Positions 3,101-39,941 of a stretch of DNA of 64,000 bases are shown here, piece after piece. Both the position numbers and the translations under genes were made by a program. The DNA lies in contig JAFWFV010000018.1 of NCBI GenBank assembly GCA_017515465.1, forward strand, positions 1 through 64,000, given 5' to 3'. This DNA is from Clostridiales bacterium (GTDB lineage Bacteria; Bacillota; Clostridia; Saccharofermentanales; Saccharofermentanaceae). The first letter of the stretch is position 1; every line of letters begins with the position of its first letter. The notes below the pieces were generated by a model, which did not search any database, was not told where the DNA came from, and saw only the letters and a list, made by a program, of their open reading frames with translations.

Positions 3101-3648
3101 ATGATCTTAACATCGCCGTCTATATCAACGGGGACCGGGAAATCTATCTCTCCCTCAGCGATATACCATCCTGAATCGAGTGCGGTTTCCGTACCCGTAA
3201 GGCTTGTCACTTCCTCCGTCAGATACTGGGGTGAACCGGTCTCATCAACATATTCTGTTACCTCTGTAGAAGGGCTTATGACACCCGGATCAGGGTTGAC
3301 AATCGGTATCTTATCGTCTGCAGCAGGGATCTCCACCTCATCGATATCAGTGATATCAATGATCTCATCGACCACGATATCGGCAGGTTCTTCTACGGGT
3401 TCTTCCTCCGGTACTTCCACGGGGACTTCCTCGTCAGCGGGGGATCCATCTTCATCAGGAACGGTCTCATCTTCTGCCTGTTCCTCAGGAAGCTGCTCCT
3501 CCTGCTCACCTTCCGGTTCGTATCCGGTTTCAACTATCTCTTCGGGGAAAACCTCTTCTTCCTCATCAGCCATAACCGTTGCAGGGATCATGCTGACCAT
3601 CATGGCAATACTGAGAACTAGAGCTACTATCCTTCTATTATTCTTCAT
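187..3648 (-). CDS. Large secreted beta-repeat surface protein
   Basis: 1153 residues with a clear signal peptide (basic MKNNRR, hydrophobic core to about residue 27, AXA-like site before DEEEE). Residues about 28-105 are a Glu/Pro/Val-rich acidic stretch. Two similar blocks follow, about 125-400 and 410-800: each opens with Y.DE.G, then L..G.Y.A.GE.D and a GDV.IIL..GC line, and continues in short beta strands rich in Gly, Ile and Asn typical of right-handed beta-helix/carbohydrate-binding surface proteins. A TPTPTP linker near residue 845 joins a C-terminal domain of about 300 residues that I do not recognise. No LPXTG signal or C-terminal membrane anchor, so it is probably released or held non-covalently. 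AAGGAGG lies ahead of the ATG. Function unknown; adhesion or glycan binding is an inference. Confidence 0.75.
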   Translation of the reverse strand: MKNNRRIVALVLSIAMMVSMIPATVMADEEEEVFPEEIVETGYEPEGEQEEQLPEEQAEDETVPDEDGSPADEEVPVEVPEEEPVEEPADIVVDEIIDITDIDEVEIPAADDKIPIVNPDPGVISPSTEVTEYVDETGSPQYLTEEVTSLTGTETALDSGWYIAEGEIDFPVPVDIDGDVKIILADGCDVDAIQFITADDNDDTIRFYGQSNGNGKIKISSAGVNDGISMENIYFNGGIVNISQDSLNEAVLANMVTINRGEVNIICTAADNDSINGIQTYSLTMRGGELNVSGFNVGVEGKDTGNLIFAGGELNISGCRCGIYAPVATTVYLIGGKIDISGSETGAGIEAYGNSDVYLGCSSASDSIKVSSFDVEHDITVDGGKSLKTSDGSIVISAVLTYDEITAISGKTLVRVSEAVTYIDENGVEQSVNDPVYLNGYENSLTAGFYVAAGEMDLDKISISGDVRIILTNGCELTLDGFTHTPDSRPGEASEDILTFYGQEVTELGDKGWGVCKVIGADGPYTAPNMYRPEAGINADAVNFFGGYVEINAVAGVQVDNGNVTVDYGVENGYVRIDSDLVGLSSLVPSVCSLKVEEGKLLIMSEDPGDLPPYYGIQGIGSLATTVNGGFLSVNAHSNYDTAVCGIYAPIKVTGGRVAIAANSSAAGQAVGINADGFIESGTDVKEYNSVCVTGGDLYVEPISENGSAYGIIAGSDVRFTGGTVRICGSIARILPRDIEVVLGCNTNEDSIRIDDDFTEYDVYRDYPDDSPYDVVDPDPEDPYEGDIVGPTSTPTPTPDPYPWGRGELTVKIVDGGAVKNGDGKVFFGTVAEENYPGLIGTPLTKAEKPDIRIYGYSVQLNGSIGVKPVIVLPDEAYDDTSARIVFSVGGEDREIPVKDHFDRSMDNYYNYYCSYICNLSAKQMTDVVKISYVSDSGSLELADEGDHEFTVLKYADYIKNNHNVGSHETNDLVYSLLNYGAKAQKIFKYGDQGAEIEQYLEDHSGDFYNCPKSITEAGIDVNDYYSYRSDWANGIRFYGSSLVLKSDLRLKLYFEVDGYDARYIQVSKGTIEAKGDMVIVTLELDNIKDLMDVIELSIYPGSGVSSGSSFKIAPSRYIAKVLSDDSSLGSDLNNVCEALALYYRGAKNYGVG

Positions 3649-3724
3649 TGCATGGTCCTCCTTACAATTGAGGTCTGTTTTGTTATCTATTAATTATATA
3701 TTATTTTTTTGAGGATTCCCACAT

Positions 3725-3751
3725 GAAAAAGCCGGAGTTCTTAGCTCCGGC
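3725..3751 (-). terminator. Rho-independent terminator after nifU
   Basis: On the minus strand a GGCCGGAG / CTCCGGC stem is followed by TTTTT (3726-3730). It sits 11 bases after the nifU stop codon and separates the Fe-S genes from the secreted-protein gene downstream. Confidence 0.85.
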
Positions 3752-3761
3752 CATCGGTCTG

Positions 3762-4139
3762 TTACTGTTTCTTTCTGTTCTCGTAATCTTCCAGCGCCGA
3801 TTTTATCGCTTCCTCTGCCAGCACCGAACAGTGGATCTTATGGGCCGGCAGACCGTCCAGGGCCTCGGTGACCGCCTTGTTGGTCAGCTGCATTGCTTCT
3901 GTCAGAGGTTTTCCCTTGATCAGCTCAGTCGCCATTGAACTGGATGCTATTGCACTACCGCATCCGAAAGTCTCGAACTTGACGTCTGTTATGATGCCGT
4001 CATCTATCTTCATGTACATCTTCATGATGTCACCGCACTTGGCATTTCCGACCTCACCTACTGCATCTGCATCCTCGATGACACCGACGTTCCTGGGGTT
4101 CCTGAAATGATCCATTACCTTTTCACTGTATAAAGCCAT
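3762..4139 (-). CDS. nifU: Fe-S cluster assembly scaffold NifU/IscU
   Basis: 125-residue IscU/NifU N-terminal-type scaffold on which [2Fe-2S]/[4Fe-4S] clusters are built before transfer to target proteins. The three ligand cysteines are visible: C35 in KCGD, C60 in FGCGSA and C104 in HCSVL, with the conserved Asp after the first Cys. Length matches the short NifU-like proteins of Clostridia that lack the C-terminal NFU domain. It lies 17 bases after the cysteine desulfurase gene on the same strand and ends at a terminator, so the two are surely one transcript, with the desulfurase supplying sulfur. Called NifU-like by the usual clostridial naming; IscU would be equally fair. Confidence 0.93.
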   Translation of the reverse strand: MALYSEKVMDHFRNPRNVGVIEDADAVGEVGNAKCGDIMKMYMKIDDGIITDVKFETFGCGSAIASSSMATELIKGKPLTEAMQLTNKAVTEALDGLPAHKIHCSVLAEEAIKSALEDYENRKKQ

Positions 4140-4156
4140 CTTGATTCCTCCTGTGT

Positions 4157-5341
4157 TTAAAGAATATGCGCTGTCTTGCCTGATTCCAGATCTCTCCAGA
4201 CAGGTGAGAAGCTGCGGAGATATGTGACTACCTCCGATACGGACTTAACGATATAGTCTGACTCTTCGTCCGTTATGTCCTCGCCGAGGCTGAGCCTCAA
4301 CGATCCGTGTGCCACGTCGTGGACCCTGCCTATTGCCAGAAGCACATGACTGGGATCCAGCGACCCGGATGTGCATGCACTGCCGGATGATGCCTGTATT
4401 CCCTTATCATCCAGGAGCAGAAGGAGAGATTCACCCTCGATACCCTCAAAACAGAAGTTGATATTGCTTGGGAGGCGCTTTGCATGATCACCGTTAAGTG
4501 CGCTGTGAGGGATGTTTCCGATTCCTTCGATGATACGGTCCCTTACCTCAGTGAGCCTGGCCGATGTCTGATCTATTCTGCTTACAGATTCCTTAAGAGC
4601 CTCTGCCATAGTAGCTATAGCGGGAACATTTTCTGTTCCTGCTCTCTTGCCTCTCTCCTGGGCGCCGCCCTCTATGATGTTCGTCAGGTTGATGCCCTTG
4701 CGTGCGTAGAGGAATCCCGTTCCCTTAGGTCCGTGGAATTTATGTGCAGAGGCGGAGAGCATGTCGATGTTCTCCTTCTCAACGTCTATGGGGAGATGAC
4801 CTACAGCCTGTACCGCATCGGTGTGGAATAATACTCCGTGACTGCGGCAGATGGCGCCTATCTCACTGATGGGCTGAATGGTCCCGATCTCATTGTTGGC
4901 ATACATGACCGTTACCAGGCACGTATCCTCCCTGATCGCAGATTCCACCTCGGAAGGACGTACCAGTCCGTCCTCGTGCACATCGAGCAAGGTTACCTCA
5001 AAGCCTTCCTTCTCCAGTTTTTTCAGGGTGTGGAGCACGGCATGGTGTTCGAAAGCAGTTGAGATAATATGTGTCTTGCCTCTCTTCTTGCCGAAGGTTG
5101 CAGCTGATACGATCGCCTGATTATCGGCTTCGCTGCCTCCCGAGGTGAAAGTTATATCTCTTGGAGATGCTCCGATAACTGAGGCAATATCCTCTCTGGC
5201 ATGTTCCAGAACCTCTTTTGCCTGCTGTCCGAATTCGTACAGGCTGGAAGGATTACCATATGTACTCTTCAATAGTTCTGTCATCACTTCGATGGCTTTA
5301 TCGCTCATCTTAGTAGTTGCTGCGTTGTCAGCATATATCAT
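4157..5341 (-). CDS. nifS: Cysteine desulfurase (NifS/IscS type)
   Basis: 394 residues. PLP-dependent removal of sulfur from cysteine to give alanine and an enzyme persulfide for Fe-S assembly. The PLP lysine is K201 in SAHKFHGPKG; the catalytic cysteine is C323 in SSGSACTSGS on the long flexible loop typical of group I (NifS/IscS) enzymes; the HTD.VQ.G motif is at 173-181. First gene of a nifS-nifU unit, transcribed divergently from an Rrf2/IscR regulator. A consensus-like promoter lies immediately upstream. Expected to be controlled by that regulator, as in other Isc systems. A role in tRNA thiolation as well is possible. Confidence 0.95.
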   Translation of the reverse strand: MIYADNAATTKMSDKAIEVMTELLKSTYGNPSSLYEFGQQAKEVLEHAREDIASVIGASPRDITFTSGGSEADNQAIVSAATFGKKRGKTHIISTAFEHHAVLHTLKKLEKEGFEVTLLDVHEDGLVRPSEVESAIREDTCLVTVMYANNEIGTIQPISEIGAICRSHGVLFHTDAVQAVGHLPIDVEKENIDMLSASAHKFHGPKGTGFLYARKGINLTNIIEGGAQERGKRAGTENVPAIATMAEALKESVSRIDQTSARLTEVRDRIIEGIGNIPHSALNGDHAKRLPSNINFCFEGIEGESLLLLLDDKGIQASSGSACTSGSLDPSHVLLAIGRVHDVAHGSLRLSLGEDITDEESDYIVKSVSEVVTYLRSFSPVWRDLESGKTAHIL

Positions 5342-31561: not shown

Positions 31562-33790
31562 TCAGATGAACCTGATGTTGTCGATGTAGATCTCACCATT
31601 GCGCTCAGTATCGGTAATGCTGAACTTCAGGCTCGATATCGAGATGTATCCTTCCCCCTTGAATTCAAAGGTCAGGGTCTGCCATGTGAGATCCTGTCTG
31701 ATATCTGATTCTCCGAAGTTTTCAATGGAAAGCCTCTTCTTGCGCTGCTCCGGATTGAATACGTCCACCACCAGCTTGTTCCTGCCCCTGATCTCGATGG
31801 GGGCAAGGAGTGATGCATAGCTCAATACGGGTTCAAAACCGTAGAGGGATTTGTCTGTCTCATATCTGATGTGGAGAGATGAAGCTCCCTGTGTCTTGTT
31901 CATCTTCTCGGTAGTGATGACGCCGTTGCCCTTGAAGGTGCGGTAGACATCCAGGAGTTCAAAACTGCTCTCCCTGTCTCTCTTGCCTACGAACTGCAGC
32001 TTGTCACATGCTGCAAATGACAGGTCGGGACAGTAATATGCAGCTCTCCTGTCAAATCTGAAGGGAAGCACGGGAAGATCTGCCAGATTCCTGAATGTCG
32101 CATCATGGGGGAAAGGCGAGAAGCCGTATGTTACGCTGACAGGCTCCTCCACTGAGTCAGCCCAGACCATGACCCTAACTCCGTGAAGTATCCTGGCGCT
32201 GGCAGGATAGAATATCCTGTCGGGACCGCAGACTGCAAAGCCAAGGAGCTCACTGTTGCCCTCGGTGAGCCTCAGGCCGTCTGCCAGGTTGTTGAACTTG
32301 AGTATGAGCTTGTTTCCGGTCTTTTCCACGCCGGTCAGCTGAGGACATGAGCAGGGGAGCTTGGGCGTAAAGTGTGTACCCAGAGCGGCGGTCGCCATCC
32401 TCTGTCCCAGGATAAAGCTCATTGTCTTGTCGGGAAGCAGAAGGTCGTGAAGACTTATGATGCCTGACCTCATCTCCAGCTTGTTCATGAAGGCCTGGAT
32501 GACCTCGTTGAACTCGAGAACGCTGTAGGGTTCATCGAAGTCCACATGATCGGGATGCATGGCAACGAATATGATCGAAGGCATCAGCGCCTCATCGTAG
32601 ACCTCCGATGGCTCGAAGGTGAATGCAAAAGTAGTGAGCATGCCCATGAGCAGGAGATCGTATCTCTCAAAGAGGAGATCCTCCCTGTCAGGAGAGAAAC
32701 AGAAACCGCGGACGGGAAGTCCCGTCAGAGGCGAGAGTATCCTGTTGTACAGATATGCAGTCCTGAACTTGGGCCTGATGTAATCTATGTCTTCCTTTTT
32801 TTCTTCCTTCTCCGGCTTTGTACTGGGGATCATGGAAAAATCGAGCATCTTTGCAGCGGATGCCTTCAGCATTCCGTCGCCCTCTCCCGCTTTCTTAAGT
32901 GCACTGCCTTCGGATGTTGGGAAGTCGAGTTCCTTGACTTCCTGGATGACCTCATAGTCACTGGCCTCGCCCTTGAGGTCCTTGAGTTCTTTATCCTTAT
33001 TAAGGTCGAAATCCAGGAGTTTGCTGCTCTCCTTGATCTCCTCCTCCAGACTGGATGTCTCCTGTCTCTTTATATCCTCTTTCTCGAGGGCATCATATCT
33101 CTCCTGATCGAGGTACAGACCGATACTCTCCAGGTAGTCCTTGACGGCGACCATGCTGTCTACCGCCTCTCCTGAGATCCAGTTCAATATGGATGAATTA
33201 AGCCTGGCCAGATCCACTACTCCTACGGGGTATGAGATCTGGTTAGCCAGGGAATATGCGAATGCGAATGCAGAGGATGATACCTCGGATAATGCCTTTG
33301 TGTCCGTGATCTTGATCCAGTTGAAATCCTCTCCGTCATCCGATGCCCTGAGGAATCTGAGATAGCTCATTACCCTTCTCTTGAGCGGGCCGGAAGGTGC
33401 ATTTGCCTCCTTCATGGGGATGGAAAGGAATTCGGATCCCGTAAAGATCCACACGTCGCCGCACCTGATATCAGTAACGGATACCTCTTCGGACATGCAT
33501 CTGAATATGAATGTGTATGAGTCGGCAGAGGCCTTGTATGCGGGGATATTGAACTGAAAATCGCCCTTGGCGCCCGTCGTTGCCTCGCGGCTCAGGATGA
33601 CGCCGTAGTCCGTATCCAGCTTGGATATCCTCCTGCCGTCAGTAGGATATTTGACGATCTCCAGTGTTATCGTAGCCATTGCAGGAGCCTTGCCGGTTAT
33701 GTTAAAGGCAAGATTCTGCTGAAATATCGCTTTGTCGGACAGCCACTTGGGCAGGATTATCTTACTGTTATGCTTATCTTCGGACTGCAT
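31562..33790 (-). CDS. Sialate O-acetylesterase-like protein with lost catalytic motif
   Basis: 742 residues from ATG 33788-33790, the start with a GGAGG site upstream (13 bases); an upstream ATG at 33814 lacks one and lies right after the promoter -10, and similarity begins at KIILPKWLSDKAIFQQN. N-terminal jelly-roll plus SGNH-type esterase layout and a C-terminal beta-domain (PCSCPQLTGVE...FPHDATFRNLADLPVLPFR) match sialate O-acetylesterases, but the nucleophile motif (GQSNM-like) reads GDVWIFTGSEFL, with the serine position replaced. A highly charged insertion (about 205-340) splits the middle. A C-terminal domain of about 120 residues looks like a carbohydrate-binding module. No signal peptide. 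Probably non-catalytic; substrate unknown. Confidence 0.65.
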   Translation of the reverse strand: MQSEDKHNSKIILPKWLSDKAIFQQNLAFNITGKAPAMATITLEIVKYPTDGRRISKLDTDYGVILSREATTGAKGDFQFNIPAYKASADSYTFIFRCMSEEVSVTDIRCGDVWIFTGSEFLSIPMKEANAPSGPLKRRVMSYLRFLRASDDGEDFNWIKITDTKALSEVSSSAFAFAYSLANQISYPVGVVDLARLNSSILNWISGEAVDSMVAVKDYLESIGLYLDQERYDALEKEDIKRQETSSLEEEIKESSKLLDFDLNKDKELKDLKGEASDYEVIQEVKELDFPTSEGSALKKAGEGDGMLKASAAKMLDFSMIPSTKPEKEEKKEDIDYIRPKFRTAYLYNRILSPLTGLPVRGFCFSPDREDLLFERYDLLLMGMLTTFAFTFEPSEVYDEALMPSIIFVAMHPDHVDFDEPYSVLEFNEVIQAFMNKLEMRSGIISLHDLLLPDKTMSFILGQRMATAALGTHFTPKLPCSCPQLTGVEKTGNKLILKFNNLADGLRLTEGNSELLGFAVCGPDRIFYPASARILHGVRVMVWADSVEEPVSVTYGFSPFPHDATFRNLADLPVLPFRFDRRAAYYCPDLSFAACDKLQFVGKRDRESSFELLDVYRTFKGNGVITTEKMNKTQGASSLHIRYETDKSLYGFEPVLSYASLLAPIEIRGRNKLVVDVFNPEQRKKRLSIENFGESDIRQDLTWQTLTFEFKGEGYISISSLKFSITDTERNGEIYIDNIRFI

Positions 33791-33848
33791 CTGAAAGTGT
33801 TTTCCTCCGCACATAATTAGTCATTATGATTATACATCTAAAATAAGA

Positions 33849-33900: not shown

Positions 33901-34881
33901 TCATATATCCTGCATGGTGATCTCTTTGTAGAAATTGGTGAGGTCAGTCCTGTTCTCATTGGTATATCTGATGGCATCCCTGGGGTGCTGGTTGAACAGG
34001 CCGGAGAGGAGATACTGGATATCGTAACCCCACTTAACGCCGTCTGCCTTAAGAGGTTCCATGTACTCCTCGATGAACTTGATCACGGGATAGAGATTGT
34101 ATTTGGGATTCCTGAGGAAACCGATGACATTCTCCATGGAGCAGTTGCCTGCGCCTCTGCCCATTCCCAGATATGTGGCATCGATCCAGTCAACGCCGTC
34201 GCCTATAGCCTCGATGGTATTGGCAAAAGCCATCTGCTGATTGTTATGGGCGTGGATGCCGACCTTCTTGCCAAACTTCTCTGCGTATTCCAGATAGAGG
34301 GCTGAGATCCTCTGGATCTGCTCGGGATAGAGAGAGCCGTAGCTGTCAACGATATAGATGCAGTCAACGTCAGTCTGGAAGATCATGTCCAGAGCGCATC
34401 TGACATCCTTCTCACCGGCGTTGGATACAGCCATGATGTTGCAGCTGACTTCGTATCCCTTTTTCTTTGCATCGTTGATCATTGCGCAGCACTCGGGGAT
34501 AGTATGTACATATGTGGCAACCCTGATGAGATCGATGGGGCTCTCAGACTTTGGACGGATGTCCTCCCTGTAGTTGCATCTGCCCACATCAGCCATTATG
34601 GAGAGCTTGAGACCCGTGTCCTTGTTCTCTCCTATGACATCCAGGATATCCTCGTCGGAGGAGAACTTCCACTTGCCGAACTTGTCAACATCGAACATGG
34701 TCTTGTCTGCTCTGTATCCGACTTCCATATAGTCAACACCGGCTCTGAGGTTAGCTCTGTACAGGGCCTTTACGAACTCATCCTTGAAGAAAAAGTCGTT
34801 GCACAGACCGCCGTCACGAAGGGTAGCATCAAGAACCTTAATAGACTCTCTGTAGCCCATCAATGCTGATAATTCTTTCAT
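33901..34881 (-). CDS. DRE-TIM metallolyase (HMG-CoA lyase/4-hydroxy-2-oxovalerate aldolase-like)
   Basis: 326 residues. The barrel begins with VLDATLRDGG, the metal and catalytic DRE motif, and has the second metal site in GIHAHNNQQMAFANT, a conserved C-terminal GAGNCSMENV loop. It is clearly in the HMGL-like superfamily, but lacks the dimerisation or acceptor domains of isopropylmalate or homocitrate synthase, and no aldehyde dehydrogenase partner is adjacent. Proteins of this short type occur near surface-polysaccharide or nucleotide-sugar genes; here the neighbours are a YfhO-like membrane protein upstream and a terminator downstream. The reaction is not established. Confidence 0.8.
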   Translation of the reverse strand: MKELSALMGYRESIKVLDATLRDGGLCNDFFFKDEFVKALYRANLRAGVDYMEVGYRADKTMFDVDKFGKWKFSSDEDILDVIGENKDTGLKLSIMADVGRCNYREDIRPKSESPIDLIRVATYVHTIPECCAMINDAKKKGYEVSCNIMAVSNAGEKDVRCALDMIFQTDVDCIYIVDSYGSLYPEQIQRISALYLEYAEKFGKKVGIHAHNNQQMAFANTIEAIGDGVDWIDATYLGMGRGAGNCSMENVIGFLRNPKYNLYPVIKFIEEYMEPLKADGVKWGYDIQYLLSGLFNQHPRDAIRYTNENRTDLTNFYKEITMQDI

Positions 34882-34929: not shown

Positions 34930-36879
34930 TCAGCGTTCGGGGTAGTGCATATCATAAAAATTTTCGAGAAATACGAAAATCATGAGCAGCACTACCGCGA
35001 TCAGCGATATGAGCGCCGTCGTGGTAAAGAAATCCGGCATGTATCTGATGGTTATCAGGTTGGTTCCGGGATTAAGCACTACCGAATAGAAGAAACCGTC
35101 GTAGTATTTGGGAACGGTCCTGGAACCATTTACATTGATCTCCATGTGGGAGTCTGCCGGGATGGAGATGAACAGCTGCTGACCCTCACTGCCGTCTAAT
35201 GTGAACTTCATGTTCTTGGAGGTGATGCTCATGGCCGTGGGAGGCATCTTTCCTGCTTCCTTGGACATCTGCAGTCTCGTTTCTGGATCTGCCTGCTTAT
35301 AGGCTTCAACGAAATAATCGCCGTCAAATACCATCGCCATCGGCATGTGATAAGGATTGAGATATACACTGTATCCCTCCAGTTCTCCGAGGGGATCATC
35401 TCCTCCCGTTATGCTCTTGAGATCAGCTTTTGATACAAAATACTTGACTGCGTAAGGATACAGCGTTCCGATGAGATCACCTTCCGCAGCGATCTCCTTG
35501 GACTCGTCCTTGAAATAGATATAGTCGTCATTGGAAGACAGGAGAGTTACCTTGGACAGATCCTCTGATACGATACCTATCCTGTAGGTTCCCTTGTCCA
35601 GATCCCTGACGGCTCCGATTATCGTACGTTCCAGCGTTGCCTCAGTATAGAGTGATACAGGCTTTTCAGGTGCGTTCTCAAATCTGGATCCGACGGGCAG
35701 GATCACGCCTGTTATGAAGGTGATCACCATGAACACGCCTGCAGCAGAAACAGTGATGATATCAACAAACCTGCGTTTGCTGAGACTGTTATATGTCAGC
35801 AGTGACTGGGCAAATGTGAATACTATGACCATTACGATGGCGTACTTTACCGGATGGGAACCGGTATCGATCTTTTCCCCGCCCGTGATGAGCTTCATCA
35901 GCGTGGGAGAAAGTGATATGGTCGCAATAACTGCGGCAGTAAGGAATACTGCGATCTTCATCGTATATCTGAAATTATTGAGGAACAGGAATGCTATGAG
36001 GACCAGTCCTCCGAATATCAGGATGCTCAGTGCGGGAAGGTTTGTTGTTATGTCAAACGTGGATACTGTGGGTTCATCCGGAAGGAGCCTGATGGACATG
36101 AACCATATGACGGCACCTGAACCCAGTGCCAGGATCTGCGAAGCAAGGTATCTTGCTGATCTGGCCAGCAGTGTCCTCACATCCAGGTTCTTTACGAAAC
36201 CTTCAACTGAACATGATCTGTATACCAGTTCAAAGATGAACCAGATCAGTGTCACCATTGAGTTGAAAAGACCTGTATACCAGTCGGAAACAAGACTGAG
36301 GAGTGAGGTTACCATAAGGAGCTGACCGCCCTTATCGTCACAGATCTTATAGGCTCCGAGCATCATTACGGGCAGGAAGATCATTCCGTCTGCCACTGAC
36401 AGGCCGTCTCCTGTCATGAAAGATGACATCGCATACATTACGGAGATGAATATGCAGGACAGGTGCTTGAGTTCAAACTTCCATCCCTCGATATTCTTGC
36501 CGAAAAGGAAACGGTAGTTGATGAATGCCGCACATGATGCCGCTGCCAGTGCGATCTTGATCACATAGACAACGTCATATGCCCTCTCGAAGTTCTGAGC
36601 ACCGGACAATACAGCCAGATATGTCAGAGGGGAGAAAAAGAATTCGCTGATCCTGTAGAAAACACCTTCCCCGGAACTGCCGGAAAAGGAATAGAAGATG
36701 CTCTGCCTGCCGTCGACCACGGCCCTGATGTACTCGAAAACATCGTATTCAGAAGCCGTACCCAGCGATCTCGCCCCAAAAGGGGCGAGACCATATACCG
36801 AGCATATTATCGCAAAAAGGATCAAAGTCGCCGCAAACGCGATCAGACAATTGTATGAACGTCTGTACTTAAACCTCAT
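34930..36879 (-). CDS. YfhO-family membrane protein
   Basis: 649 residues with about 12 predicted membrane segments in the first 400 residues (ending near SLSKRRFVDIITVSAAGVFM), then a large extracytoplasmic part (about 420-620) with a final membrane segment before the C-terminus. The first-loop motif with ASEYDVFEYIRAVVDGRQSIFYSF resembles YfhO/GT-C-like glycosyltransferases that add sugars to teichoic acids or lipids from polyprenyl donors; the DXD-like acid is in that loop. It follows the pseudo-PP2C gene by 11 bases. Substrate and donor are unknown. Confidence 0.75.
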   Translation of the reverse strand: MRFKYRRSYNCLIAFAATLILFAIICSVYGLAPFGARSLGTASEYDVFEYIRAVVDGRQSIFYSFSGSSGEGVFYRISEFFFSPLTYLAVLSGAQNFERAYDVVYVIKIALAAASCAAFINYRFLFGKNIEGWKFELKHLSCIFISVMYAMSSFMTGDGLSVADGMIFLPVMMLGAYKICDDKGGQLLMVTSLLSLVSDWYTGLFNSMVTLIWFIFELVYRSCSVEGFVKNLDVRTLLARSARYLASQILALGSGAVIWFMSIRLLPDEPTVSTFDITTNLPALSILIFGGLVLIAFLFLNNFRYTMKIAVFLTAAVIATISLSPTLMKLITGGEKIDTGSHPVKYAIVMVIVFTFAQSLLTYNSLSKRRFVDIITVSAAGVFMVITFITGVILPVGSRFENAPEKPVSLYTEATLERTIIGAVRDLDKGTYRIGIVSEDLSKVTLLSSNDDYIYFKDESKEIAAEGDLIGTLYPYAVKYFVSKADLKSITGGDDPLGELEGYSVYLNPYHMPMAMVFDGDYFVEAYKQADPETRLQMSKEAGKMPPTAMSITSKNMKFTLDGSEGQQLFISIPADSHMEINVNGSRTVPKYYDGFFYSVVLNPGTNLITIRYMPDFFTTTALISLIAVVLLMIFVFLENFYDMHYPER

Positions 36880-36890
36880 TTAGGTTTCTG

Positions 36891-39800
36891 TTACTGCTCC
36901 CAATTGTTTTCAAGCCCTGCGCCCTCTCCATAGTCAGCGCCGCCGAGCTGAGGCGTACCTTCTACCTGACCTTCACCACCGGTGCCGGTGCCTGCATCCT
37001 GACCGCCCTGGGTATCCGTACCGGCCTGTGTATCCCCAGTAAGTGAGGGGGTAAACGTGTTCGGGATGGTACCTTCGATGACACCCTTAGGAGGAAGGAG
37101 AACTTCACTGTTAGCCTGAGGAGTGTAATCAGCAGGGAAGTTGTTGTAGTCCTTGATGATCTGGATCCTGGGATCGCTGAGATCGGACAGGTTGATATCG
37201 TATACATAGTGGAAGAGATCCCACCATGTTCTGTATCCGATGTAGTTGGAGAACTTGAAGCTTGCAATAGGAGCTGAGGGATTCTCAGCAGTCGTCTCAG
37301 TAGCTGATGTCTCCACCGGCTGTGTAGGTATCGTCGTCTCTGATGTTGTGAGAGGATCGTCCACTGAAGAGGATGTCTCTGATGTCTTCTCACTGCAGCT
37401 CTTGACTATGAGTGAGATTATGATCGTCAGACATACGATCAGGAGGACAACAAATACGATAAAGATGTATCCGTTCCTGTTGAGCTTGAACTTTGTCTTG
37501 CCGCCGCCTCTGTTGCCGCCATTTGCAGAACCGGGCTGACGGGGTCTGGTTCCGCCCGGACGCTGTGCGCCCTGGGAATGAGCTCTGTTAGGGCCGCCGT
37601 CTGCAGCATTGTAGCCTGTTCCTCTGGGGTTGGCATTCTGAACAGGAGCTGCCTGCGGCTGTGCTGCTGCAGCTGCTCCGCCTGCCACGAAGGTCTCGGC
37701 ACCGGGGATATCCTCCCTGCCGTAAGACGCATTGTCATCTACTCCGAGGAGGTCCATGATCCATGCATCATCGCCTGATCCTGCAGAAGATGATACTGAA
37801 GCTGCGGGTTCGGAAGAATAGTTGCCCTCACCCATATCCTGATATCCGGAATATGCGGATGTCTGGTACTGCTGGCTGTTGTCTGTCTGATAATTAGCCT
37901 GGTCACCTGTCTGGAATACCTCACCGCCGTAAGGCTGATAAGGAACATCCTCCTGAGGTGCCTGGGCAGTTGCATATCCATTCACCTGATCTGCAGCCTG
38001 AACATCTTCGTAGCCGCCGTATGCGTAGGTATCTTCTACCTGGGCATCGATGGGCTGTTCTGAGTTGACTGCATTAACGGGTGTATCGTATACATTTGCA
38101 TCGTATTCTGGCATGTCGGGAACCTGTTCGGTCATCTCGGGTGCGCCTACGGTGTCAACGTCATTTGCAAAGGGGAGCCTGAATCCGTCTGCAGGCTCTG
38201 CCGCAGGTTCTGCGGTCTTTTCCTCTGCCTCGGGGAAGTCAACATTGAGCTTGTCCTCGCTGTCGATATCAGGCTTGGGATTCTCGATCTCAAAATCGGG
38301 TACGGGTATCTCGGATACCTCCTCAGCGGCCTCTTCAACAGGGGCAGATGCCTGAGCCTGGGAATCGTCGCCAAATATCAGGGGAGCTGCATTCTTCATC
38401 TCCTCAGGATCTCCGGCACTGTAGGGATTGAAGCTCTCCTCAGTGGGAACATCCATGAACTTGTTGCTGTCATCTACGGCATCGAAAACGATCTCATCAG
38501 ATGAAGATGCCTGGGGTGCCTCGCTGACGAAGGACATGGGTTCCTCGGGAACAGGCTCGCTGACGATCTCAGGCACCTCTTCGGCAACAGGCTCGGGTAC
38601 AGGTTCAATTGTATCCTTGATGGCCTGCTCGAGGACTCCGCCCTGCTTAAGACCTGCAAAGATCGATGAATCAAGGCTCGTGATGGGCTTTGTAGGCTCA
38701 TCGTCAGTTGCGGTCATGGGATTGAACTCTGAAATGGAGATAGTCTCCATATTGTCAGATGCTGCGCCGTCTCCGGAAGCATTCATGTTATTCATGGCAT
38801 TTTTCATCAGATCCTCAGGTGTTATCTGGACCTGATCACCGTCTACTGAACCGTCGAGGAACTCGAGCTTGCTCTCTGAGGGACTGACCTCAGTGCCGAC
38901 TTGGATACCCAGATCAGGTGAAGCAACCTGGTTAACTGCGGGAGCGGAAACAGCAGCTGCCGCTGCCTCTCCGAATACAACGGCACCCTCTGCTGCAGAC
39001 TGTGTAGCTACAAATGATCCTGCGCTCTCAGCTGCTGTGAGGGAAACGAATCCTGCATCGCTGGCAGCCTCTGCTGCTGCGCCTACGACTCCGCCCTCTA
39101 CGACGGATTCAACATTGTTTTCCTCTTCATCGTCATCTCTGGACTTTTTCTTGAATCCGAAGATGCCTCTCTTGTCCGTGTTGGTAACGTTCTCGACAAA
39201 TGAGATGGAGAACTGCATGGGAACATTGGGCATCCTTGCAGACGCCTGTGTGATGACAACGCCAGCGGCGTCACACTGATCCTCAGCCTCGTTCAGGATC
39301 CTGAGGAGTTCCCTCTGTCCGAGAGCATCGTATACAGCCTTGTTGCACAGGATGATGCAGTCATCGGGAGAAAGTGTAAAGTAATTGGACCAGAGGGCAT
39401 TAGCCGTCTTGGATGCACAATAATACATGAAATCCCCAACTCTGTTATCGAATGCATCGATAGCTTCCATGGGGATTCCTGCGTCTGTCAGTGGAAATAA
39501 TGTATCGTCACGGTAGAGGAATGCCAGACCGTTTCCAACCGTAACTGCAAATGCCTCTGCGTCCCTGACGATGATGCCGGAAAAATAAGGGCTCCTCATC
39601 TCGTTGTCAGACAGACGCATCTTGCCCGTAACCTCAACTGCCGTTGAGAGGAATTTCTCGATAAGGCCGTCGATCTCCTTGTGGCCGAACTTAACGTCAT
39701 TGCAGAGTGATCTGAACTGTGGCTCGAAGGGAGGGAGCATGCCGGGCTCAAATCCCTCGATCGTCGGATGTGTGAAGACGGAGAAGAAGTAACCTCTCTC

Positions 39801-39941
39801 TTCCTTTTCGATTGTTATATCAGCCTGACGCGTTTCTCTTTTTCCGCAAAGTCTTCCATCAATATAGAATGCATCTGTGAGAGTCTGTGACGGCGAAAAC
39901 TTCGCTGTCAGTGTACTCGCGAGACGGGTTAAGGTGGCCAT
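36891..39941 (-). CDS. Pseudo-PP2C / acidic linker / membrane helix / LysM-like protein
   Basis: 1016 residues, not a standard family. Residues about 1-250 resemble a PP2C phosphatase: VTVGNGLAFLYRDDTLFPLT aligns with VGDSRAYL, and DDCIILCNKAVYDAL with the SDGL region, but both metal-binding Asp motifs are changed, so catalysis is unlikely. About 275-800 is a disordered Glu/Pro/Ala-rich linker, then Gln/Tyr/Gly-rich, then basic. One membrane helix (about 825-846, ends LIVKSC) and an outside part of about 165 residues whose residues 895-950 (WWDLFHYVYDIN..., PQANSEVLLPP) look LysM-like. The topology would put the phosphatase fold in the cytosol and the wall-binding fold outside. Novel architecture; function unknown. 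Confidence 0.65.
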   Translation of the reverse strand: MATLTRLASTLTAKFSPSQTLTDAFYIDGRLCGKRETRQADITIEKEERGYFFSVFTHPTIEGFEPGMLPPFEPQFRSLCNDVKFGHKEIDGLIEKFLSTAVEVTGKMRLSDNEMRSPYFSGIIVRDAEAFAVTVGNGLAFLYRDDTLFPLTDAGIPMEAIDAFDNRVGDFMYYCASKTANALWSNYFTLSPDDCIILCNKAVYDALGQRELLRILNEAEDQCDAAGVVITQASARMPNVPMQFSISFVENVTNTDKRGIFGFKKKSRDDDEEENNVESVVEGGVVGAAAEAASDAGFVSLTAAESAGSFVATQSAAEGAVVFGEAAAAAVSAPAVNQVASPDLGIQVGTEVSPSESKLEFLDGSVDGDQVQITPEDLMKNAMNNMNASGDGAASDNMETISISEFNPMTATDDEPTKPITSLDSSIFAGLKQGGVLEQAIKDTIEPVPEPVAEEVPEIVSEPVPEEPMSFVSEAPQASSSDEIVFDAVDDSNKFMDVPTEESFNPYSAGDPEEMKNAAPLIFGDDSQAQASAPVEEAAEEVSEIPVPDFEIENPKPDIDSEDKLNVDFPEAEEKTAEPAAEPADGFRLPFANDVDTVGAPEMTEQVPDMPEYDANVYDTPVNAVNSEQPIDAQVEDTYAYGGYEDVQAADQVNGYATAQAPQEDVPYQPYGGEVFQTGDQANYQTDNSQQYQTSAYSGYQDMGEGNYSSEPAASVSSSAGSGDDAWIMDLLGVDDNASYGREDIPGAETFVAGGAAAAAQPQAAPVQNANPRGTGYNAADGGPNRAHSQGAQRPGGTRPRQPGSANGGNRGGGKTKFKLNRNGYIFIVFVVLLIVCLTIIISLIVKSCSEKTSETSSSVDDPLTTSETTIPTQPVETSATETTAENPSAPIASFKFSNYIGYRTWWDLFHYVYDINLSDLSDPRIQIIKDYNNFPADYTPQANSEVLLPPKGVIEGTIPNTFTPSLTGDTQAGTDTQGGQDAGTGTGGEGQVEGTPQLGGADYGEGAGLENNWEQ

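Follow-up and report, generated by a model that had tools for sequence, protein, structure and literature searches.

What is the function of a membrane protein that appears to carry a defunct phosphatase on its cytosolic side and a domain of a wall-binding type on its outer side? The question is raised by a gene in the window, the whole stretch of 64,000 nucleotides analyzed here, which belongs to a Saccharofermentans-like genome with Saccharofermentans sp., Mageeibacillus sp., and Ruminococcaceae bacterium YRB3002 as near relatives. As proposed in the initial annotation, the open reading frame occupies positions 36891–39941 on the minus strand; it starts with an ATG at 39941 and encodes 1016 amino acids. 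We propose, with a probability of about one half, that the product is a receptor-type pseudophosphatase, in which a LysM end is linked to the cell wall and an inner PP2C domain, dead as an enzyme, works by binding proteins. No Pfam or NCBIfam model matches the 1016-residue protein above cut-off, and it is likely a wall-signaling component that current domain libraries have overlooked.

Architecture of the Protein

The protein is predicted to span the membrane once, with its N-terminus inside and its C-terminus outside. Full-length members contain a single hydrophobic segment by hydropathy analysis, corresponding to one membrane helix as originally suggested (residues about 825–846; 37404–37469), and a charge count places basic residues on its N-terminal flank, the pattern predicted for a single-pass receptor with a cytosolic N-terminus. 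Preceding the helix are the pseudo-PP2C domain (residues 1–252; 39186–39941), delimited by an AlphaFold2 model, Foldseek and VIA comparisons, a profile–profile match, and the rate of nonsynonymous change (dN), and a cytosolic linker defined by composition and conservation (residues 253–820; 37482–39185). The outer portion consists of a spacer whose sequence is rich in Ser and Thr (residues 847–894; 37260–37403), a degenerate LysM-like domain assigned by hhalign comparison with the LysM domains of orthologs that pass the Pfam cut-off (residues 895–951; 37089–37259), and a Gly/Thr-rich C-terminal tail with almost no conserved column (residues 952–1016; 36894–37088). A survey of orthologs found the same order of parts, PP2C, linker, membrane helix, and LysM, in every full-length sequence inspected. 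Since this order and the inner domain are conserved across a bacterial order, the layout is not a product of chance.

The acidic, low-complexity linker, estimated initially at roughly 500 residues, comprises 568 and holds 105 Asp and Glu versus 23 Lys and Arg residues between positions 259 and 815. Its length varies from 396 to 827 residues in the window's family, versus 63 to 332 residues in the other families of the order. While weakly conserved overall, it retains a few short conserved motifs. We speculate that this long disordered segment, specific to the window's family, would give the protein reach and may hold short binding motifs. Conserved stretches lie within residues 600–735, around DMPEYD, YQPYGGE, and DAWIMDLLG, and could serve as binding peptides.

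A PP2C Fold with a Lost Catalytic Site

Sequence searches with the window protein alone do not reveal its relationship to phosphatases: neither PF00481 nor PF13672 reaches its cut-off, and no PP2C match appears at E-values up to 1. When the family profile was run directly against solved structures, it likewise returned nothing relevant, so that a comparison of folds was needed. An AlphaFold2 model of the inner domain built from 35 sequences (pLDDT 90.9, pTM 0.90), which replaces an earlier model of moderate confidence from 22 close sequences (pLDDT 70), adopts the PP2C fold that had been suspected for the N-terminal region. Its top match among solved structures is Stp from S. agalactiae (2pk0; Foldseek E = 1.4e-9), with which VIA aligns 197 residues at a Z score of 17.4 and an rmsd of 3.7; VIA Z scores are 16.2–16.4 for PstP from Mycobacterium tuberculosis (1txo/2cm1) and 13.7 for the pseudophosphatase TAB1. 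In the model, the flap region of the PP2C fold is shortened and contains no helix. Profile comparisons agree with this assignment. In a one-template comparison, the profile of the window's family aligns with an intact PP2C domain over 216 columns at a probability of 95.9%, and a broader inner-domain profile reaches authentic phosphatases of about 250 residues in many Clostridia genomes.

Alignment with intact relatives demonstrates that the metal sites have been lost. All four metal-coordinating aspartates (Asp38, Asp118, Asp191, and Asp229 in PstP numbering) are replaced in the window protein. The Asp–Gly of the DGMGG motif, with Asp38 and Gly39, has become T57–H58 (39768–39773). The GDSR motif that supplies the third-metal Asp118 reads GNGL, with N137 in place of the aspartate (residues 136–139; 39525–39536; aligned with intact relatives L133, L134, and L142), and the CSDGL motif reads CNKAV (residues 199–203; 39333–39347), with SDG replaced by NKA (200–202) and Asp191 by K201. 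These are the two motifs, within VGNGLAF and ILCNKAV, that had been flagged as altered at the outset. In addition, the Arg and Glu of the RxxNED motif are replaced by S18 and T22, and the Asp–Asn of the final motif by Val–Pro. Members of the order present in the alignment share these losses, except for a lone aspartate at the GDSR position in L092 (GDGV), and most of them have Lys or Arg at the Asp191 position. The only site residue to survive in the window protein is the aspartate of NED, D23.

Because all known PPM phosphatases require at least two metals (PMC12002173), the inner domain is expected from its sequence to lack phosphatase activity. It is very unlikely that it remains a phosphatase through an unconventional metal site or some other mechanism: D23 hardly varies and sits in an intact, strongly conserved fold, but the metal requirement, the disappearance of the other ligands in the order, and the prevalent exchange of Asp191 for Lys or Arg all argue against residual catalysis. 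Could the emptied pocket instead hold a small molecule or nucleotide, for example a wall precursor or a second messenger? Basic residues lie at former metal positions (K201, and H58 in many members) and the strands flanking the pocket are invariant, as such a binding module would predict; several of the former ligand positions nevertheless differ between genera, and we regard this alternative as improbable.

Constraint on the Dead Domain

Loss of catalytic residues together with a degenerate LysM domain might indicate a decaying, pseudogene-like remnant or a misread low-complexity frame. The pattern of substitution and the conservation across the order refute decay and leave this explanation a negligible probability. 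The gene is single-copy with an open frame, and the dead domain is under the tightest constraint measured in the region. When the window is compared with four close relatives, dN in the dead domain is 0.014–0.019 with synonymous sites saturated, which, dS values being rough, corresponds to a dN/dS below 0.01, versus 0.15–0.20 for the linker. Its identity to the close relatives (97–98%) is that of ribosomal protein L2 (96–98%) and exceeds that of FtsZ (84–90%), which argues against decay; the corresponding values are 77–82% for RadA, 53–61% for DUF885, and 48–60% for IspD. A more distant congener (G012) yields 83% for the dead domain, 85% for L2, and 68% for FtsZ. Recent transfer as the source of the 98% domain identity was rejected since synonymous sites are saturated. 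For a dead domain, constraint this strong probably means that a large part of the surface matters, and hence favors a role in protein binding. We infer that the domain, having given up catalysis, would serve to bind a cytosolic partner that itself varies very little, and that signals from the wall are probably carried by partner binding and not by catalysis.

The Outer LysM-like Domain

The outer end of the protein had been described as LysM-like. The homology holds, and the domain is canonical in orthologs, but the window copy is degenerate and falls below the Pfam cut-off. The window protein does not match Pfam LysM (PF01476), nor do L049 and L058 of its family, while 15 relatives outside this family pass the cut-off (for example, L081 with 53.9 bits and L101 with 59.2 bits). 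In a one-template hhalign comparison, the window domain aligns with orthologous LysM with a probability of 95.4% (E = 1.8e-8, 42 columns). It also occupies the same location as the LysM domains of the orthologs, past the membrane helix and a spacer, and profile match and orthologs together support a LysM fold. In the window's family, the domain starts with GYRTWW in place of GDTLW, and the GDT loop has become GYRT or GFRT. Owing to the loss of this loop, glycan binding is uncertain in that family, and putative wall binding by its LysM-like domain may be altered. In our model, the LysM end would anchor the protein in the cell wall or sense the state of the wall.

Distribution and History

Within the window's family, 105 of 115 genomes carry the inner domain, one of these copies being a fragment (E = 2e-8); across the order, the figures are 176 of 188 genomes and all 30 genera. 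No copy was found in three genomes that are 94–97% complete (G029, G030, and G055), which may reflect either true loss or a gap. Beyond the order, at least seven additional families across Clostridia have proteins that combine PP2C, a membrane helix, and LysM; these proteins are about 440–490 residues long (675 in one case) and range from an intact PP2C domain with two LysM domains through partly dead to fully dead forms. Two relatives, L127 and L128, bridge the series, as each exceeds the cut-offs for PP2C and LysM in one chain (PP2C scores of 30.9 and 20.9 bits, respectively, against a cut-off of 20.3). L134 (G319, 3269–4876) carries a PP2C domain with all metal ligands, a membrane helix, and two canonical LysM domains, and judging from these features it is likely an active wall-receptor phosphatase of Clostridia. 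With structure prediction and orthologs, this intact-to-dead series supports the original description of a dead phosphatase inside and a wall-type domain outside, and neither of the contrary observations named with that description, a lack of both folds or metal sites that align as intact, was made.

In a phylogenetic tree whose branching among families is poorly resolved, 47 rows form a LysM clade (support 100/98), with L134, L133, and L142 falling outside and L134 branching directly next to it. A single long branch (2.5 changes per column, support 100/100) leads to the window's order. GDSR is kept in none of the 47 rows of the clade; Asp38 is kept in most rows outside the order and Asp229 in about half, while the order keeps neither. 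This graded retention suggests that the metal site was lost stepwise, and the third-metal aspartate looks to have been lost earliest. The intact LysM-bearing receptor phosphatase and the fully dead receptor thus mark the two ends of a series on one tree. The dead form is kept with a constancy like that of a ribosomal protein, and the series offers a concrete case in which to study how an enzyme that has lost its activity can become difficult to discard.

The outer domain differs between lineages. L142 (7490–8707) combines an intact PP2C domain with a membrane helix and an Ig-like Big_2 domain, and L135 (7653–9053) has the same layout with a partly degenerate PP2C domain.

Comparison with Known Systems

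Our literature search found no bacterial LysM–PP2C protein, no bacterial PP2C pseudophosphatase, and no earlier description of the window protein, and a classification of bacterial PP2C proteins does not mention LysM (PMC12088040). The protein can be described as a PP2C pseudophosphatase, comparable to eukaryotic TAB1 and PHLPP, in a wall-receptor layout comparable to PstP and the PASTA kinases. PstP of M. tuberculosis shares a cytosolic N-terminal PP2C domain, one membrane helix, and an outside C-terminal domain, described as a putative PASTA domain (PMC12088040). PstP differs in being an active, metal-dependent enzyme with an outer domain of another type than LysM, whereas the window protein has lost the metal site and contains an acidic linker of great length. 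The PASTA-domain Ser/Thr kinases PrkC, PknB, and StkP likewise place a catalytic-type fold inside and a peptidoglycan-recognizing domain outside, on either side of one membrane helix, and the anatomical parallel drawn at the outset with these kinases is borne out. They differ in having a kinase fold, PASTA in place of LysM, and activity, and they are encoded separately in genomes of the order. TAB1 and PHLPP have a PP2C fold and no activity. TAB1 works by binding its kinase TAK1, which resembles the binding role proposed here, and PHLPP2 likewise lost its activity, having descended from active ancestors (PMC12002173). TAB1 and PHLPP2 each retain one bound metal (PMC12002173), and TAB1 and PHLPP are eukaryotic proteins that have neither LysM nor a wall-facing receptor layout. 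L134 has the same order of parts as the window protein, yet keeps all metal ligands and has two canonical LysM domains.

Genomic Context and Possible Partners

What might the inner domain bind? The suggestion in the initial annotation, that the protein could detect the state of the wall and, on its inner side, bind a kinase or phosphoproteins, is still the hypothesis we favor. Its kinship with PP2C phosphatases leads us to suggest a tie of the inner domain to Ser/Thr phosphorylation, most plausibly through a component of that circuit such as the PASTA kinase, Stp, or a phosphorylated substrate. In its most specific form, which we advance tentatively and at less than even odds, the protein would be a core part of Ser/Thr phosphosignaling throughout this order of Clostridia: LysM would read the wall, the dead PP2C domain would hold or shield phosphoproteins or the PASTA kinase, and kinase, phosphatase, and pseudophosphatase would form a three-part circuit. 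All 38 sampled genomes of the order encode PASTA domains and 37 of them PF13672 phosphatases, in each case away from the pseudo-PP2C gene; in several of these genomes, the phosphatase adjoins the PASTA kinase at a distance from it. The order-wide presence of PASTA proteins leaves no contrast for a co-occurrence test. In the window's own assembly (G000), we found one PASTA match, in an 808-residue frame, and two kinases without PASTA; the PASTA kinase of the usual operon and Stp were not found there. Since the nearest relatives have PASTA proteins of about 700 residues, this absence is likely an assembly gap.

Gene neighborhoods of the pseudo-PP2C gene contain no conserved signaling partner and no linked kinase gene. 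The lack of linked signaling genes would also fit a wall-to-cytosol tether or scaffold, in which the dead domain binds a structural or divisome partner unrelated to phosphorylation and positions wall machinery. A fixed protein interface would account for the ribosomal-protein-like constancy, and the former ligand positions hold varied residues instead of one new chemistry. We nonetheless consider such a scaffold somewhat unlikely: class relatives closer to the enzyme retain up to three of the metal aspartates, and two of them pass the Pfam PP2C cut-off, so the ancestral role was probably phosphoprotein signaling.

Across genomes, the neighbors of the pseudo-PP2C gene are mostly housekeeping or local genes (DUF885, RadA, IspD, SerA, an aminotransferase, and AlaS). 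The YfhO-like and DRE-TIM aldolase genes initially pointed out next to it are present in the window (PF09586, 113.6 bits; HMGL-like PF00682, 87.2 bits), but this neighborhood is confined to the closest relatives, carries no weight, and was rejected as functional evidence. The aldolase (33901–34881) is 88–94% identical in close relatives, and the adjoining YfhO-family protein (34930–36879) only 43–47%. Further along, a 750-residue open reading frame (31562–33814) has no Pfam or NCBIfam match above cut-off and is 75–77% identical over its full length in two close relatives.
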